This document shows, piece after piece, positions 1 through 11,539 of a stretch of DNA of 32,260 bases. A program made the position numbers and the translations under genes. This DNA is from a bacterium. GTDB taxonomy: Bacteria; Thermosulfidibacterota; Thermosulfidibacteria; Thermosulfidibacterales; Thermosulfidibacteraceae. Position 1 is the first letter of the stretch. Every line of letters begins with the position of its first letter. The stretch covers positions 1 through 32,260 of the forward strand of contig JALVKL010000135.1 in the NCBI GenBank assembly GCA_027033775.1. Reading direction: 5' to 3'. A model generated the notes under the pieces. That model searched no databases and had not been told where the DNA came from. It saw only the letters and a program-made list of their open reading frames with translations.

Positions 1-349
1 ACATAAGGCATCTTGCCATAACTTCAGCCCACTGTTCCACATCGGATCTTGTATAGAAATTTATTATAGGAGTTCCTGTAGTTCCCGATGACATGTGGAA
101 TCTGACAAAGGATTCTTTAGGTGCACACGTATATTTAAAAGGGTATCCTTCCCTCAAATGGTCTTTAGTAAGAAAGGGAAGCTCTTCTAAATCATCTAAA
201 CTCCTTATATCTTCGGGTTCTACTTTATTTATATGTTCCCAATAAAACGGATTGTTTTTCTTTATGTGCCTTATAGTATTTCTTAATCTCTCCAGTTGAA
301 TTTTTTCTATGTCTCTTCTGTCCATAGTTTCAATACGAGGTTGATACAT
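1..349 (-). CDS. paaK: Phenylacetate-CoA ligase (PaaK family), 5' part only, cut by window edge
   Basis: This gene is absent from the ORF track because it runs off the left edge; I read it from the reverse complement. The visible 116 residues start MYQPRIETMDRR and contain the AMP/ATP-binding motif SSGTTGTP, preceded by a typical PaaK N-terminal stretch (LPFLTKDHLREGYPF). PaaK-family enzymes activate aryl acetates to CoA thioesters with ATP in the cytoplasm. The ATG at 349 has a GGAGG ribosome site just upstream and overlaps the 3' end of the iorB-like gene by 20 nt, so the two are translationally coupled. In many anaerobes a PaaK-like ligase travels with indolepyruvate oxidoreductase genes and acts on aryl acetates. 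The exact acid cannot be told from this fragment. The family assignment is secure. Confidence 0.9.
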   Translation of the reverse strand, partial: MYQPRIETMDRRDIEKIQLERLRNTIRHIKKNNPFYWEHINKVEPEDIRSLDDLEELPFLTKDHLREGYPFKYTCAPKESFVRFHMSSGTTGTPIINFYTRSDVEQWAEVMARCLM

Positions 350-851
350 GGCTTTCCTCCCGCATATATCCTGCCATTAAGGCGTTTATATTTTCTGAGG
401 AGTCTTTTTTTATCCGTTTCAGTAAATCTAAAGCCCTTTTGGTATTTAAGTGAAAAATTTTTAGAAGTATTCCTAAGGCAACCATATTTGCTGATTTTAA
501 AGGGATATTCTCTTCTTTCATAATTTTTTCCAAGTTTATAATATGATAGTTTTCATAATTGTCTATTTTGTATCCCAAAATGGTTGCCTTATCCTTCATA
601 TAAAACAAAGCTTTTGGGAGTTCGTCTGGATGTAAGACCACTCCTATGTCTGCCTCTTTTCTTTTAATAAGGGGGGAGTAAAAATTGCCAATTTTCATAA
701 ATGAAATTACACTACCTCCTCTGGTGGCCATACCATGGGTTTCCGTGGAGATAACCTTGTGCCCTTCTTGTGTCAATAATTCTCCAAGTATCCTGGTGAG
801 GAGTACTATTCCCTGTCCTCCTGTGCCTGAGAACACCATCTTTTTATTCAT
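330..851 (-). CDS. iorB: Indolepyruvate/2-oxoacid:ferredoxin oxidoreductase, beta (gamma-domain) subunit
   Basis: The 173-residue protein opens with the nucleotide-binding type motif FSGTGGQGIVLLTRILGE and continues with THGMATRGGSV, both hallmarks of the gamma/IorB domain of 2-oxoacid:ferredoxin oxidoreductases. IorB works with the TPP- and Fe-S-containing IorA subunit to convert aryl pyruvates oxidatively to aryl-acetyl-CoA, reducing ferredoxin. No IorA is visible; it may lie left of the window. The length is slightly short for the family (about 190-200 aa), mainly at the C-terminus, but the frame is open throughout. ATG at 851 is the only sensible start, and no clear Shine-Dalgarno sequence precedes it. 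It is the first gene of a leftward unit with the PaaK-like ligase, and its promoter region is shared with the divergent thiolase gene. Confidence 0.85.
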   Translation of the reverse strand: MNKKMVFSGTGGQGIVLLTRILGELLTQEGHKVISTETHGMATRGGSVISFMKIGNFYSPLIKRKEADIGVVLHPDELPKALFYMKDKATILGYKIDNYENYHIINLEKIMKEENIPLKSANMVALGILLKIFHLNTKRALDLLKRIKKDSSENINALMAGYMREESHVSTSY

Positions 852-4906: not shown

Positions 4907-6238
4907 TTAGATCACACCTTCTTCTTTAAGTTCGTGGAGTTCTTCTTTGCCATAGTTGAGCATGGTAAGATAAATGTATTCATTATCCCTTCCTACAGGC
5001 CTACAGACCCACTTGACTCTTGGAGGTGTTTCCGTCATCTTCCAGGGCTGATTGCATATAATAAGCTCACCGTATATTGGGTCGTTGAATTTCTCAAAGG
5101 TTCCCCTTATCCACCAGTTTTCTGTATGCATGGCTTCCCATGCAGAACAGACCTTACCAGGAACTACAACACCGCCTTTTCCACTCTCTTTAGCTTCTTT
5201 GTTGGCTTTCATAACCCTTTCGTATATTTCCTGATACTCCTTATCTATGGTCCACTTTTCTATCTCTTTGTAAGCAGCCTTCATATTCTCGAAGTTTAAT
5301 CTCTCAAATATAGTGGGATATTTTTCCCTTAAATCTGGCCTCTCAATCACTTCGGTGAGCAAAGCCCAATTCACATCTGAGAATCCAGAGAGGAAACAGA
5401 ACCCGTCTTTACACTTAAAGTAGGTATAACAGAAAACCCCTGCATCCAGATTGCCAACCCTTTCAACAGTTTCTCCCCTGCCGTAAAAATACGTCAAACT
5501 GTAATTTATCATTCTGCCAAAGGCCTCTGCGGGAGAAACATCTATCATCTGACCTTCGCCTGTGTTGTGCCTGTAATGAAGGGCAACGAGTATGGAGAAG
5601 GCTGCGTAAGCTCCCCCACAGTACCATCCCATCCAATTGCCCTGTTTTGTGGGGACTTCCCACTCTTTAGGGTTGTTGGGATCTTCCACGTATTCGCCAG
5701 AGACATAGGTTATACCGCTCATTGCCTGATCTATAACATCTACATCGGCCTTTCCACATCCCGCTTTAGGGCCAAATTGCCCATAAGTGTAAATGGCACA
5801 GTATATGAGCTTGGGGTTTTCCTCCTTAAGCTGTCTATAACCAATACCCCATTCATCCATGGTACCAGGCAAGAATGTCTCAATTATAACATCAACTTTC
5901 TTTGCCAGTTTTTTGAATATTTCCCTGCCTTTTTCTTTATTCAGATTTAAGGTTATATGATATTTGTTTCTTCCTTCGTTTAAATAACCAAGCCCTTCTT
6001 CTTTGTGGGTAACACCGAAGGGGGTGTAGGTCCTTGCAGGATCTCCGCCAGGTGGCTCTATCCTTATAACGTTAGCTCCCATCTCTGCAAGAATGGAAGA
6101 GGCAAAGCAGCCAGCCATATTGGCATAACTCACATCAATTACCCATATATCGTCAAGGGCTTCCGGTTTCTTCCTAGCATACTTGGGATCGTCGTGTTCT
6201 CTTATCCACTCATCCCAAGGTTTTGTCATCTCTGTCAT
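4907..6238 (-). CDS. Family III CoA-transferase, subunit lacking the catalytic Asp (pair 1)
   Basis: The 443-aa protein is a CaiB/BaiF (family III) CoA-transferase homologue: LDDIWVIDVSYANMAGCFASSILAEMGANVIRIEPPGGDPAR, MDEWGIGYRQLKEENPKLIYCAIYTYGQFGP and the GEGQMIDVSPAEAF segment are all family features. Where active members carry the Asp that forms the covalent acyl anhydride, this protein reads GNWMGWYCGG, with Trp205. It is therefore probably a structural or substrate-binding subunit of a heteromer with the gene just upstream, 27 nt away. I choose ATG 6238 over the tracked TTG 6256, because GGAGG at about 6247-6251 then serves as ribosome site. A strong terminator follows. It is closely related to the gene at 8251-9582. 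Confidence 0.88.
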   Translation of the reverse strand: MTEMTKPWDEWIREHDDPKYARKKPEALDDIWVIDVSYANMAGCFASSILAEMGANVIRIEPPGGDPARTYTPFGVTHKEEGLGYLNEGRNKYHITLNLNKEKGREIFKKLAKKVDVIIETFLPGTMDEWGIGYRQLKEENPKLIYCAIYTYGQFGPKAGCGKADVDVIDQAMSGITYVSGEYVEDPNNPKEWEVPTKQGNWMGWYCGGAYAAFSILVALHYRHNTGEGQMIDVSPAEAFGRMINYSLTYFYGRGETVERVGNLDAGVFCYTYFKCKDGFCFLSGFSDVNWALLTEVIERPDLREKYPTIFERLNFENMKAAYKEIEKWTIDKEYQEIYERVMKANKEAKESGKGGVVVPGKVCSAWEAMHTENWWIRGTFEKFNDPIYGELIICNQPWKMTETPPRVKWVCRPVGRDNEYIYLTMLNYGKEELHELKEEGVI

Positions 6239-6265
6239 GGTTCCTTCCTCCTTCAAGGTTTTCTT

Positions 6266-7606
6266 TTAGGGGTAAATAACGCCTGATTTGCCATCCCAAT
6301 CATCAGGCGGTGTCCTTCCAATCATATCGCTCCATTTACCTATAACACCTTTCTTTTCCAATTCCTGTATCTCTTCCCATTTCATACCTAAGAATTTGGT
6401 GAGCACAAAATAGGTGTCAAAACCTACAGGCCTTCCAGCCCACTTTATTCTTCCAGGTGTCTTGGAGAGCTTAGGAGCTATACCCTCTTCTACAAGCTCA
6501 CCTATAACAGGATCGTGAACTCTCCATTTAAATCCTCTTATCTCAAAGTGAGGATCTGTGAAGTGATCCCTTCCATTGTGTACTTTTTCTGCTCCAAATC
6601 CGTATTTTTGCGCAAGCCTGTCTATTTCAGGCCAAATATTCTGGGATACCCATTCTTTTATAATTGAAAGAAGCTCTGTAGCATTTTCCTCTTTTAATCT
6701 TTCTAAATGTGTGGCAAATCTTGGGTTTTCAGCAAGATCCATTCTCTTCATGGCTTTGCACAGTCCTACAAACTGTTCATCGGTGGCGCATGCAATGGCA
6801 ACAAACTCTCCATCTTTGCTCCTGAATATATCACTGGGGCAGATGGCAACATCTCTGTTGCCATATCTTTCTCGGGGTTTTCCTGTAAGATGCTGATACA
6901 GCCAGGTCCAATCCATGGCTCTCATAATGTTTTCTGCCTGGGAGAACTCTATATATTGCCCCTTTCCTGTTCTGTCTCTGTAGTGGAGAGCAGCCAAAAT
7001 GCCAACGGCAGCCTTAAGGGCTCCATAGTAATCGCAGAGCCATATACCAGATTTCATAGGCAATCTTCCAGGAAAACCTGATATCCAAGCTTCTCCAGAT
7101 TCGGATTGAGCTATGGCATCATAAGAAGGCCTTTCCACATAAGGTCCCCACTGTCCAAATCCGTTGTTGGCTATGTAAATCAGCTTCGGATTAACTTCCT
7201 TCATCTGCCTGTATCCCACACCCCATCTGTCCAGTGTTCCTGCCCTTAGGTTTTCCACAAATACATCGGCTCTTTTGATAAGCTCCATAAATATCTCTTT
7301 TCCTTCGGGATAATGAAGATCAATACCCACACTGTATTTGTTTCTGGCTTCCTTTAGCCATCCAAGGGCCTGTTTCTTGTAAAACCACCCCCAAGGGGTA
7401 AGTGATCTCATGGTGTCTCCCATACCAGGTAGCTCAACTTTAATTACTGTGGCTCCAAATTCTGCCAGATACGCTGGGGTTGCTGGTCCAAGAATTAGTG
7501 TGCAGAATTCAACTATTACAATATCGGAAAGGGCTTCTGGTTTTTCAAACACTTTTTCAAGTGAGAACTCCTGTTCAGCCCATTTTAGAAAGTCTTCCTT
7601 TGCCAT
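6266..7606 (-). CDS. Family III CoA-transferase, catalytic subunit (pair 1)
   Basis: The 446-aa protein has the N-terminal family signature ([39 protein letters not shown]), the [27 protein letters not shown] segment, and [15 protein letters not shown], whose Asp192 (codon 7031-7033) aligns with the catalytic Asp of formyl-CoA transferase. Family III enzymes move CoA between carboxylic acids through mixed-anhydride and Asp-CoA thioester intermediates. ATG 7606 follows AAGGAGG. It is the first gene of the pair-1 unit. The two-gene layout with one Asp-bearing and one Asp-less subunit is like that of heteromeric enzymes such as succinyl-CoA:benzylsuccinate CoA-transferase (BbsEF). Donor and acceptor acids are unknown. 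Confidence 0.9.
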
Positions 7607-7640
7607 TTTCGTGTCCTCCTTGAAAGGTTTCTGGTTTTAT

Positions 7641-7670
7641 TTAAAAGCAGAGTTTTTATGCGTGTGTCAA
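7641..7670 (-). promoter_or_regulatory. Candidate promoter for CoA-transferase pair 1
   Basis: On the minus strand TTGACA (7670-7665) is followed after 18 nt by TTTTAA (7646-7641). The -35 element is perfect, the -10 weak. Transcription would start about 30 nt ahead of ATG 7606. Confidence 0.35.
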
Positions 7671-7690
7671 GAGTTAATTAATTTTTTTTG

Positions 7691-7720
7691 TTGATGCTTA
7701 AACTCATTGTTCTGTATAAT
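7691..7720 (+). promoter_or_regulatory. Promoter of the hotdog thioesterase gene
   Basis: TTGATG at 7691-7696, an 18-nt spacer, and a perfect TATAAT at 7715-7720, followed by a good ribosome site and ATG 7761. Confidence 0.55.
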
Positions 7721-7730
7721 ATTAACAATG
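7705..7730. promoter_or_regulatory. Inverted repeat around the thioesterase -10 box (candidate operator)
   Basis: CATTGTT (7705-7711) and AACAATG (7724-7730) are a perfect 7-bp inverted repeat with a 12-nt gap that contains TATAAT. The placement would suit repression of the thioesterase promoter. The regulator is unknown. Confidence 0.4.
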
Positions 7731-7760
7731 TTTATTTTCATAAAAATTGAGGAGGAAAAA

Positions 7761-8219
7761 ATGGATAAAAACAGGTGGGTGAGGGAACTTGAAGAAATTT
7801 ACAGAAAAGCTCCTATCAGTAAAACCTTGAATAGTGAAATATGGTTTGACGAAGATTTTAGGGCTCATTTTAAGGTAAATTTTACCCCCTCTTTATGTCA
7901 CGCACTGTTGGATTATCATGGAGGAATAATTGCTGCCCTTATAGACAATGCTATATGGTTTACCGCTTCTGCTTGCTATCCCAGGATATGGATTACCACA
8001 TCCGAGTTCCATACTTATATAGTGGGTGCTCCTGAGGGAAAGAGTATTTTTTCAGAAGGGTGGATGATCCACAAAGGCAAGAGAACAGCTGTTGCTAAGG
8101 CAAAGGTTAAAACCGAAGATGGAAAGCTTGTAGCCTTTGGAACTGGAACATTGATTGTTCTTCCCCATATCGAATTCTCATTGGAAAAGGTGAAAGATAG
8201 GCTAAAGTCTTTAAAGTGA
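7761..8219 (+). CDS. PaaI-type hotdog-fold acyl-CoA thioesterase
   Basis: The 152-aa protein contains DYHGGIIAALIDNAIWFTA, the HGG...D signature of PaaI/YdiI-type hotdog thioesterases (His53, Asp62), followed by the typical strand pattern EFHTYIVGAPEGKSIFSEGWMIHKGKRTAVAKAKV. Such enzymes hydrolyse acyl- or aroyl-CoA to the free acid and CoA, often rescuing CoA from stalled aromatic intermediates. The tracked start at 7707 is an upstream extension; ATG 7761 has GAGGAGG at ideal spacing. It sits alone on the plus strand between two leftward CoA-transferase pairs, which suggests that it acts on the same CoA esters. A GC-rich hairpin follows it. Confidence 0.87.
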   Translation: MDKNRWVRELEEIYRKAPISKTLNSEIWFDEDFRAHFKVNFTPSLCHALLDYHGGIIAALIDNAIWFTASACYPRIWITTSEFHTYIVGAPEGKSIFSEGWMIHKGKRTAVAKAKVKTEDGKLVAFGTGTLIVLPHIEFSLEKVKDRLKSLK

Positions 8220-8220
8220 A

Positions 8221-8246
8221 GAGGGGGAGTGGTGTATCTCCCCCTT
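8221..8246. terminator. GC-rich hairpin between convergent thioesterase and CoA-transferase pair 2
   Basis: AGGGGGAG (8222-8229) pairs with CTCCCCCT (8238-8245) around an 8-nt loop, with a possible further G-T pair. It lies between the stop at 8219 and the stop at 8251, so it could end both transcripts. No long T-run follows on either strand, so efficiency is uncertain. Confidence 0.65.
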
Positions 8247-8250
8247 AATG

Positions 8251-9582
8251 TCAAATTATGCCTTTTTCTTTTAGCCGTTTAAGTTTCGCAGGCCCAAGTC
8301 CAAGAAGTTTCTTATAAACAAACACGTTATCAGCTCCAATGGGACGGGCACACCACTTTAGTCTCGCGGGAGTTTCTGTCATTTTGTTAGCTGCAGGTGC
8401 CTGAACCAGAAGCTCTCCATAATAGGGGTCTTTCACCTTCTGGAAGGTGCCCCTAATCCACCAGTGTTCTTCCTTTATAGTATCCGAAGGTTTGTTCACT
8501 TTAGCCGTTGCCACCACTCCCACAGCATCAGGAGCAAGATTGGCTTTCATCACTTTTTCTTCCAGCTCTTTAGAGGTGAGATGTTTTGACCACTCCTCTA
8601 TTGCTTGATGTATCTTAGGCTGATTCTCTGGATTGAGCCTATCAAATATAGTGGGAAACTTATCTTTAAGTTCAGGTTTTTCCATAATGTTGCATAAATG
8701 AGCCCAGTTCACATCAGAAAATCCCGATATGAAACAGACCCCATCCTTGGTCCTGACGAAGGTATAGGGAAATACAGCTGAGTCGTAGGCACCAACCCTT
8801 CCCCTCAATCTTCCAGATTGATGATACCACTGGATATGATAATCACAGTATTTAGCTTCTGCTTCTGGGGGAGCCACATCTATAAACTGACCTTTTCCAG
8901 ATTTCATTCTCCATATTAAAGCTGTTATTATACCAAAGGCTGCCCAACAGCCTCCAGCATACCAGCCCATCCAGTTTCCTTCCTTTGTGGGTACTTTTAC
9001 CTCTTCAGGAACATCTGGATCATCAGGCTCACCAGTAATGGCCATGATGCCAGATCTTGCTTGGTCTATGAGATCGTAATCTGGTTTTTTGTAATTTTTT
9101 TCCGCTTCAGGACCAAACTGACCATATGTGTGTATAGCACAGTATATAAGTTTGGGATTGATCTCCTTTAGCTGTCTGTAGCCTATTCCCATGGAATCAA
9201 ATTCGCCAGGTTTAGCCGTTTCTATGATAACATCTGCATATGTAGCCAGTTCCTTGAATATTTCCCTTCCTTCTTCAGTTTTTAGGTTAAGTGTTATGTG
9301 GTATTTGTTTCTTCCTTCCACAAGATACGCCAACCCAGCATCCTTTACCATCATCCCATAGGGCGTCATCTTTCTGGCTATATCACCTTCTGGAGGCTCT
9401 ATCTTAATGGTGAAGGCTCCGAATTCTGCAAGTATTGATGATGCAAACAATCCAGCGTAATTTCCATAACTTGCATCTATTACAACTATATCGTCTAAGG
9501 CTTCTGGTTTTCTCCATGCGTCTTGTGGATTATCTTTTTCCTTTATCCACTCTTCCCAGGGAATCTGTTTTTCATCTACCAT
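8251..9582 (-). CDS. Family III CoA-transferase, subunit lacking the catalytic Asp (pair 2)
   Basis: This 443-aa CaiB/BaiF-family protein is a close paralogue of the gene at 4907-6238: both share PEALDDI..IDASY/VSY, RNKYHITLNL, GIGYRQLKE.NPKLIYCAI.TYGQFGP and a similar C-terminal half with EEHWWIRGTF/TENWWIRGTF. It too has GNWMGWYAGG, so Trp207 (codon 8962-8964) replaces the catalytic Asp. It is the second gene of pair 2, 21 nt after its partner, with GGGGGTG as ribosome site. It is probably the non-catalytic subunit of a heteromeric CoA-transferase. Whether it fixes the acid substrate is inference. Confidence 0.88.
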   Translation of the reverse strand: MVDEKQIPWEEWIKEKDNPQDAWRKPEALDDIVVIDASYGNYAGLFASSILAEFGAFTIKIEPPEGDIARKMTPYGMMVKDAGLAYLVEGRNKYHITLNLKTEEGREIFKELATYADVIIETAKPGEFDSMGIGYRQLKEINPKLIYCAIHTYGQFGPEAEKNYKKPDYDLIDQARSGIMAITGEPDDPDVPEEVKVPTKEGNWMGWYAGGCWAAFGIITALIWRMKSGKGQFIDVAPPEAEAKYCDYHIQWYHQSGRLRGRVGAYDSAVFPYTFVRTKDGVCFISGFSDVNWAHLCNIMEKPELKDKFPTIFDRLNPENQPKIHQAIEEWSKHLTSKELEEKVMKANLAPDAVGVVATAKVNKPSDTIKEEHWWIRGTFQKVKDPYYGELLVQAPAANKMTETPARLKWCARPIGADNVFVYKKLLGLGPAKLKRLKEKGII

Positions 9583-9603
9583 TTTGTCACCCCCGCTTTT
9601 ATT

Positions 9604-10941
9604 TTAAGGATAAAATGTTCCTGTTTTGCCGTCCCAATCATCAGGCGGTTTAGCTCCAACTCTGTCTCCCCATTTTCCAATGGTGCCGTCTTCCTCCAAG
9701 GCCTTTAACTCTTCTTCTGTAAGCCCCAGTATCCTTATAAACACATGCTCGTTATCTATACCCACTGGTCTCGCACACCATTTCTGCCTTCCAGGGGTCT
9801 CACTCATCTTGGGAGCAGAACCCCATTCCACCATTTTTCCGTATATAGGATCATCAACCTCAACCACGGCTCCCCTTGCTCTCCAGTGTTCGCTGTAGTA
9901 TTGATCCCTTGCATCAAGAACAGGGGAAGCGGCAAATCCATACTCTGCTCCCAAATCATCTATCTCTTTTATGGTCTTGTCCTTAGCCCATTCTGCTATT
10001 ATGGATAGAAGTTCCTTAGCGTTTTCATCCTTTAGTCTTTCGAGGGGATCTTTGAATCTTGGATCATCGGCAAGCTCAGGCTTCTCCATGGCTTCACAAA
10101 GTCCCCTGAACTCCTCTTCTGTAAAGGCTGCTATTGCAATGAATCCATCTTTGCATTTGAACAAATCAGAAGGGCAAATGGCAAGGTCTCTGTTGCCTGT
10201 TTGAGGTCTATCCTTTCCTGTAAGATGTAAGTACACCCATGTCCAATCAAGCCATCTCATAAGGTTTTCTCCTTGTGAGAACTCTATATACTGCCCTTTT
10301 CCTGTCTTCTCTCTGTAATACAAGGCTGCTAAAACTGCCACTGTGGACATACATCCACCTGTGAAATCGCCTATCCAAACCCCTGCTTTCAGTGGCATTC
10401 TGCCCGGAAATCCTGATATGGTCATAAGTCCCGAAACCGATTGTGCTATAGCATCGTAGGAGGGTCTACCATGGGCGTAAGGTCCCCACTGTCCAAATCC
10501 ATTATTGGCAAGATAGATTATTTTGGGGTTAACCTCTTTAAGCTGTCTGTAGCCAATGCCCCATTTGTCCATGGTGCCTGCTCTCAGATTTTCCACCACC
10601 ACATCCGACTTTTTGGCAAGCTCTATAAAAAGCTCCTTTCCCTTAGGGGTTCTTACATCAAGCCCTATGTGGTATTTGTTATGATTTTGTTCTTGAAATG
10701 CGGGGGATATATTTTTCCAGAAGAATCCATAGGGGGTGACGTATCTCATAGTATCTCCCATACCAGGTAGCTCCACCTTTATCACTTCTGCTCCAAATTC
10801 TCCCAGCCAGTCAGGAACTACAGGACCAAATATTAAGGTACAAAGCTCAAGTACCCGAATGCCTTTTAAGGCTTCTGGTTTCAAAAAGACTTTTGAGGGG
10901 TCAAGCTCACACTTTGCCCATTCAAAAAACTCCCTGTTCAT
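9604..10941 (-). CDS. Family III CoA-transferase, catalytic subunit (pair 2)
   Basis: The 445-aa protein parallels the pair-1 catalytic subunit almost segment for segment ([83 protein letters not shown], and the C-terminal [21 protein letters not shown]). Asp192 in KAGVWIGDFTGGCMS (codon 10366-10368) is the expected nucleophile. ATG 10941 follows AGGAGG, and a near-consensus promoter lies upstream. It and the 443-aa gene at 8251 form one transcription unit ending in the hairpin near 8230. It transfers CoA between carboxylic acids; the partner acids are unknown. It is divergent from the MarR gene, which may control it. Confidence 0.9.
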   Translation of the reverse strand: MNREFFEWAKCELDPSKVFLKPEALKGIRVLELCTLIFGPVVPDWLGEFGAEVIKVELPGMGDTMRYVTPYGFFWKNISPAFQEQNHNKYHIGLDVRTPKGKELFIELAKKSDVVVENLRAGTMDKWGIGYRQLKEVNPKIIYLANNGFGQWGPYAHGRPSYDAIAQSVSGLMTISGFPGRMPLKAGVWIGDFTGGCMSTVAVLAALYYREKTGKGQYIEFSQGENLMRWLDWTWVYLHLTGKDRPQTGNRDLAICPSDLFKCKDGFIAIAAFTEEEFRGLCEAMEKPELADDPRFKDPLERLKDENAKELLSIIAEWAKDKTIKEIDDLGAEYGFAASPVLDARDQYYSEHWRARGAVVEVDDPIYGKMVEWGSAPKMSETPGRQKWCARPVGIDNEHVFIRILGLTEEELKALEEDGTIGKWGDRVGAKPPDDWDGKTGTFYP

Positions 10942-11110: not shown

Positions 11111-11539
11111 ATGAGCAATAACGTGAATGATATTGTTGAGGGAATGGGGAGAGTGAGGCCATATTTCAGAAAGCTGTTCTCCATTGCCACGGATTTATCA
11201 GACGCTGAAATACTTATTTTATCTCTTCTTAAAAGCAGGGATGGAAAAAAGATTTCCATGTCAGCCCTTTACCATGAACTCCATCCCATAAAACCCAGCA
11301 AGCTTACACAGATAACAAACAAGATGGAGGACAAAGGGTTTATTAAAAAGATAAGGAGCAAAAAGGACAGAAGGAAGGTTGAGATTCACCTAACAGATAA
11401 AGGGAGGAAGGCCTTAGAAAAGTATGAAAAATCCGTTTCGGATCTGTTAAAACCTCTGGTTGAAGATTTGGATGAAAGGGAAGCCCAGATACTGGATCGT
11501 TCCTTTGATATATGGATAAAGATTCTCTCCAAACTGTGA
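11111..11539 (+). CDS. MarR-family transcriptional regulator
   Basis: The 142-aa protein has the MarR winged-helix layout: an N-terminal dimerisation helix, the recognition helix region KISMSALYHELHPIKPSKLTQITNKMEDKGFI, the wing SKKDRRKVEIHLTDKGRKAL, and a C-terminal dimerisation helix. MarR proteins bind DNA as dimers and are usually released by small aromatic or lipophilic acids, which would fit both neighbours: CoA-transferases on one side and efflux genes on the other. AAGGAG precedes the ATG at suitable spacing. It is divergent from CoA-transferase pair 2 and ends just before the TetR promoter, so it may be transcribed separately from the efflux operon. Its targets are inferred from position only. 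Confidence 0.88.
   Translation: MSNNVNDIVEGMGRVRPYFRKLFSIATDLSDAEILILSLLKSRDGKKISMSALYHELHPIKPSKLTQITNKMEDKGFIKKIRSKKDRRKVEIHLTDKGRKALEKYEKSVSDLLKPLVEDLDEREAQILDRSFDIWIKILSKL

Follow-up and report, generated by a model that had tools for sequence, protein, structure and literature searches.

Family III coenzyme A (CoA) transferases depend on an active-site Asp, and the mechanism described for them runs via an acyl-aspartyl anhydride and then an aspartyl-CoA thioester. Homodimeric members such as formyl-CoA transferase/YfdW, CaiB and human SUGCT carry this Asp in both chains and have no non-catalytic partner gene. The closest described system with a different arrangement is BbsEF of the toluene pathway (PDB 9fn0/9fol), which is encoded by two adjacent family III genes and has the nucleophile in one chain only. 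In BbsF the Asp is residue 178 (sequence taken from PDB alignments, in agreement with the 9fol title 'D178-CoA adduct'), whereas BbsE has Tyr in the catalytic column, both in PDB chain 9fn0_A and in the genuine BbsEF loci of our sampled genomes, whose BbsF is 61-69% identical. A literature search found no paper on the BbsEF structure or on the lineage described here.

We analysed a 32,260-nucleotide stretch of contig JALVKL010000135.1 (the window), in which a domain search found four full-length PF02515 genes, all on the - strand and arranged as two tandem pairs, with scores of 305-394 bits compared to a curated cut-off of 23.3. Each pair consists of a gene for an Asp chain (D1 or D2) followed by a gene for a Trp chain (W1 or W2). 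The one-Asp heteromer is a design already established by BbsEF, and the window pairs are a new lineage of that design: like BbsEF they are adjacent family III genes with the nucleophile in one chain only, but the Asp gene comes first where BbsEF has the Asp-less gene first, and the Asp is replaced by Trp rather than by Tyr. The window chains share their fold, the PF02515 domain and, in D1 and D2, the Asp motif with the homodimeric enzymes, from which they differ in the distribution of the Asp and in having a partner gene. An original prediction, made from the DNA letters, had contrasted the pairs with known enzymes for carrying Asp in only one subunit; most solved relatives are indeed homodimeric, but BbsE already lacks the Asp, so this contrast is narrower than was suggested.

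Catalytic column and pairing

Codons read directly gave GAT for Asp192 of both D1 (KSGIWLCD) and D2 (KAGVWIGD) and TGG for the partner position of W1 and W2, which lies within GNWMGWY (Table 1). The Asp column aligned to the Trp column without gaps in every alignment made, which bears out the earlier assignment of Asp, at residue 192 in each case, to the first gene of both pairs and of Trp to the second. The Asp of D1 and D2 occupies the position of FRC Asp169 and BbsF Asp178, as befits family III members, whereas W1, W2 and nearly all of their relatives have Trp there. We collected relatives from a species-genome scan (12 loci), from nine genomes belonging to the window's phylum, which is small, and from 395 belonging to the phylum that includes Desulfoferrobacter suflitae. 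Among the aligned relatives, 65/65 Asp-type partners had Asp and 96% of the 69 Trp-type chains had Trp, with His or Ala in the others. Trp-type relatives occurred in 9/9 genomes of the window's phylum, with frames intact at 46-78% identity across that phylum, and a close Trp-type relative occurred in 34/395 sampled genomes of the other. As judged from these sequences, the Asp/Trp pattern is far beyond chance and is not a local accident. Two Trp-type chains with His for Trp (MAHYAGG), L017 3167-4392 and L036 1420-2808, belong to two genomes related to that of the window.

Across the window's phylum and Thermodesulfobacteriota we found about 60 distinct adjacent pairs in which the Asp gene comes first and is followed by a Trp gene or, rarely, by one with His, Ala or Gly. 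Counted by order, there were 58 Asp-Trp, 2 Asp-His, 1 Asp-Ala, 2 Asp-Gly and 5 Asp-Asp pairs, along with 6 Trp-Asp adjacencies that are mainly junctions between successive tandem pairs; adjacent pairs on the BbsEF side were 7 Tyr-Asp and 5 Gly-Asp. At L056, L057, L058, L060 and L061, which lie on the BbsEF side, the first gene has Gly for Asp and the second gene has Asp. Distances among Asp chains correlated with those among their Trp partners (r = 0.947, uncorrected for ancestry; 0/2000 permutations as high), and mean identity was similar among the Asp chains and among the Trp partners (0.51 and 0.50).

Chains flagged automatically as unpaired were mostly located at contig edges or in over-extended frames that run across a separate Asp gene. 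Four of the five orphan Trp genes in our first count had an adjacent Asp gene hidden by such a frame, leaving L078/L112. The only clear orphan is the Trp gene of L112 (9262-10620), where a remnant of the C-terminus of an Asp gene persists just upstream (9006-9116, a match of 35-37 amino acids (aa)) and no close Asp-type relative was found elsewhere in the genome; by its sequence, L112 has lost its catalytic partner naturally. Apparent Asp-Trp fusions at L080, L082, L104, L106, L110 and L115 proved to be frames of the same over-extended kind, each running across a separate Asp gene, and were rejected. The sole real fusion found, an 816-aa frame at L059 (1462-3912, - strand), has Tyr at the catalytic column of its first domain and Asp at that of its second, and was placed on the BbsEF-side branch.

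The Trp chains retain many family columns and have many invariant columns of their own, which indicates that they are under selection. Together with the intact frames and the near-fixation of Trp among relatives, this agrees with the earlier view that the Trp is not random decay. We looked for an alternative acidic nucleophile in the alignment of Trp-type relatives and found no Asp or Glu at the nucleophile column; elsewhere, the sole acid invariant in Trp chains yet uncommon in Asp-type chains is Glu89 (W2 numbering), present in 66/66 Trp chains compared to 28% of Asp-type chains, and it stays a candidate. Asn118 of D2, which corresponds to the CoA-contacting Asn95/96 of YfdW/FRC, is conserved in 100% of Asp chains, and most Trp chains have Thr there. 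With Asp replaced by Trp and this Asn mostly by Thr, the Trp-chain pocket looks degenerate. Single-chain AlphaFold2 models of modest confidence (mean predicted local distance difference test 70 for W2 and 66 for D2) were used solely to confirm the fold, and the W2 model matches family III enzymes along its length, the best matches including human SUGCT (top), a Brucella transferase and BbsEF.

Ancestry of the one-Asp pairs

In a tree of 47 representatives, built with the catalytic column removed, a 100/100 branch separates BbsE-like and BbsF-like chains from window-type Asp and Trp chains. On the window-type side the Trp chains group together (100/98), as do their Asp partners (99/96), with one ancient Asp/Trp split that predates all subfamilies. 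Within the window, identity is 59% between D1 and D2 and 55% between W1 and W2, compared to 37-40% for any D against any W (37-39% for W1 against D1 and D2), indicating that the Asp/Trp split predates duplication of the pair. The two window pairs are paralogous copies and probably serve different carboxylic acids.

In the sampled bootstrap trees the Asp/non-Asp label has to change twice, and a tree uniting all Asp-less chains in one clade was rejected (approximately unbiased test, p = 0.0003). These results suggest that the one-Asp design probably arose at least twice, on evidence that is good and not final, with a group named by its trait and long branches present. The Asp/Asp pairs (L019 8778-11671, L126 and L146-L148) branch close to the base of the Trp clade, and their branches are long. 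Like the window pairs they are adjacent non-identical genes in the same genomes, the L019 pair belonging to the window's own genome (contig C148), but they have Asp in both chains and are longer (493 and 471 aa in L019). On the BbsEF side, the Asp-less chain of the L153 pair has Trp, which indicates that Trp appeared there separately. Orthology of the window pairs with BbsEF is rejected on the tree, the reversed gene order and the missing toluene-pathway partners (no benzylsuccinate synthase in nine genomes of the phylum, and nearby genes that score far below the BbsA/BbsB cut-offs).

Proposed working of the pairs and alternatives

We propose that each tandem pair is most probably one heteromeric family III CoA-transferase that has one catalytic pocket per Asp/Trp pair and activates carboxylic acids. 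We favour this reading because adjacency and order are near-invariant, the Trp is conserved, the partners diverge in step, a Tyr/Asp fusion exists on the BbsEF side and BbsEF itself provides a precedent; the transporter, acyl-CoA ligase, acyl-CoA dehydrogenase and thiolase genes found near related pairs fit it as well. The original prediction of heteromers with one catalytic subunit is thus well supported by comparison; its further points, that the heteromer is obligate and that the Trp subunit is structural or binds substrate, are conjectural. The Asp and Trp chains would form the interlocked dimer typical of family III, in which Asp192 of the Asp chain would attack the donor acyl-CoA, giving the acyl-aspartyl anhydride and then the aspartyl-CoA thioester, from which CoA would be handed to the acceptor acid, while the Trp chain would give its half of the fold and probably also residues to the single working pocket. 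We infer this assembly, activity, substrate class and Trp-chain role. In mesaconyl-CoA transferase, a family III relative of known structure, the second subunit contributes an Arg to the active site (PMC9196870), indicating that a chain without a nucleophile can still be needed.

Several points weigh against a one-pocket heteromer. The L019 pair, with Asp in both chains, indicates that heteromery alone needs no loss of Asp, and the orphan in L112 indicates that a Trp chain can survive alone for at least a short time. Shared host ancestry can contribute to the distance correlation and can partly explain the adjacency too, and Glu89 remains a formal candidate pocket residue of the Trp chain. It is also possible, if rather doubtful, that this is a second, independently evolved and widely diversified lineage of anaerobic bacteria whose degenerate Trp pocket has gained a selected function of its own, for instance in binding the acid substrate or telling acids apart, or as a gate to the working site; a function of this kind would explain both the specific Trp and His as the main exception.

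The Asp chains could instead be ordinary homodimers, and the Trp chains separate co-transcribed proteins (a regulator, chaperone or CoA-binding scaffold). We regard this as unlikely: most solved family III enzymes are homodimeric and the Asp chains score close to them, but near-invariant 1:1 adjacency over many subfamilies, matched divergence (0.51/0.50, r = 0.95), an Asp/Trp split older than all subfamilies and the BbsEF precedent all speak for a shared enzyme. That the Trp chain has a catalytic centre of its own with another acid such as Glu89, making a dimer with two different working sites, is very improbable. Glu89 is invariant in Trp chains, and it lies three residues past a Tyr that aligns close to the region of Tyr59, an active-site residue of formyl-CoA transferases; however, a long stretch of sequence separates it from the nucleophile position, and the CoA-contact Asn is mostly lost in Trp chains.

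We give slightly less credence still to the window pairs being BbsEF-type arylsuccinate CoA-transferases that work with genes resembling BbsB/BbsA. The one-Asp layout is the same, and 2.4 kb from the pairs (927-2517, + strand) lie genes for a thiolase-like protein and then a ChsH2-type OB-fold/Zn-ribbon protein, whose matches to BbsB and BbsA are weak (86.5 and 47.7 bits, cut-offs 750 and 250). Against this, the pairs fall in a separate clade with reversed gene order, and the thiolase-like protein has the C-terminal thiolase domain only, keeping the Cys (NCAR) without the catalytic GHPxG His motif; with its OB-fold partner it may form an Ltp/ChsH2-like aldolase and not be a thiolase. Formation of arylsuccinates requires a glycyl-radical enzyme, and searches of nine genomes from the window's phylum gave neither such an enzyme (PF02901) nor, at 1e-50, a BbsF relative; the lack of the former argues against arylsuccinate chemistry. 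The idea that the Trp genes are decaying duplicates, prompted by their lost catalytic Asp, is hardly credible given their intact frames, Trp-chain-specific invariant columns and retention of Trp in about 96% of relatives.

Gene layout, neighbourhood and meaning

The interval 4907-10941 given for the pairs in the original prediction does contain all four genes; it also holds an opposite-strand thioesterase-like gene. Intergenic gaps are 21 bases for D2-W2 and 9 bases for D1-W1. For W1 the most likely start codon is the ATG at 6238, which follows an AAGGAGG ribosome-binding site, rather than the TTG at 6256 where its open reading frame begins, and this makes all four chains 443-446 aa long. They are, as had been noted, longer than usual (roughly 360-430 aa for most solved relatives); a conserved C-terminal W...PP extension accounts for part of the extra length in the Asp subunits and is lacking in the Trp subunits.

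Table 1. Coordinates of the paired family III genes and of the genes between and beside them in the window.
Feature	Position	Strand	Details
D2, Asp subunit of pair 2	9604..10941	-	445 aa; PF02515 394 bits; nucleophile Asp192, codon 10366-10368
W2, Trp subunit of pair 2	8251..9582	-	443 aa; PF02515 320 bits; Trp207, codon 8962-8964
D1, Asp subunit of pair 1	6266..7606	-	446 aa; PF02515 366 bits; nucleophile Asp192, codon 7031-7033
W1, Trp subunit of pair 1	4907..6238	-	443 aa; PF02515 305 bits; Trp codon 5624-5626
4HBT-fold thioesterase-like gene, between pairs, opposite strand	7707..8219	+	PF03061
MarR-type regulator, divergent from pairs	11111..11539	+	PF01047

The thioesterase-like gene shares cluster c43 with L123 5628-6092, where its relative precedes an Asp/Trp pair, and the MarR-type gene shares cluster c44 with a relative that adjoins the Asp/Trp pair of L123. 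Neighbours of other related pairs include a sodium:solute symporter (L129), methylmalonyl-CoA mutase (L101, L102, L112, L129) and TRAP transporters (L105); L121 has an AMP-forming ligase with an iron alcohol dehydrogenase, an acyl-CoA dehydrogenase and an HpaB-family protein. An acyl-CoA dehydrogenase adjoins a third pair type (G002, G003), and a thiolase and OB-fold protein lie near the L124 pair. As far as gene content can indicate, these neighbours suggest that carboxylic acids are taken up and activated; contexts differ between subfamilies, and we therefore claim no single substrate for the window pairs. HpaB-family genes occur in 9/9 genomes of the window's phylum, and the proteins encoded near Asp/Trp pairs at L123 4158-5585 (+) and L121 3878-5338 (-) have C-x3-C and H-x6-C, as expected of 4-hydroxybutyryl-CoA dehydratase. 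The left edge of the window (1-851, - strand) holds part of a phenylacetate-CoA-ligase-like gene together with one resembling indolepyruvate oxidoreductase beta, which suggests arylpyruvate metabolism.

Where automatic annotation calls the Trp genes active CoA-transferases it is probably mistaken, and the window type would mark a group of paired acid-activating enzymes (9/9 genomes of its own phylum and 34/395 in that of Desulfoferrobacter). On at least two occasions, it appears, a homodimeric family gave rise to an asymmetric heteromer with a single nucleophile; the residues that replace Asp differ between the two cases, and the gene orders are opposite. The main interest lies in this apparent second origin and in the unexplained fixation of Trp, and having two independent cases makes the purpose of the dead pocket open to experimental test by comparing them.

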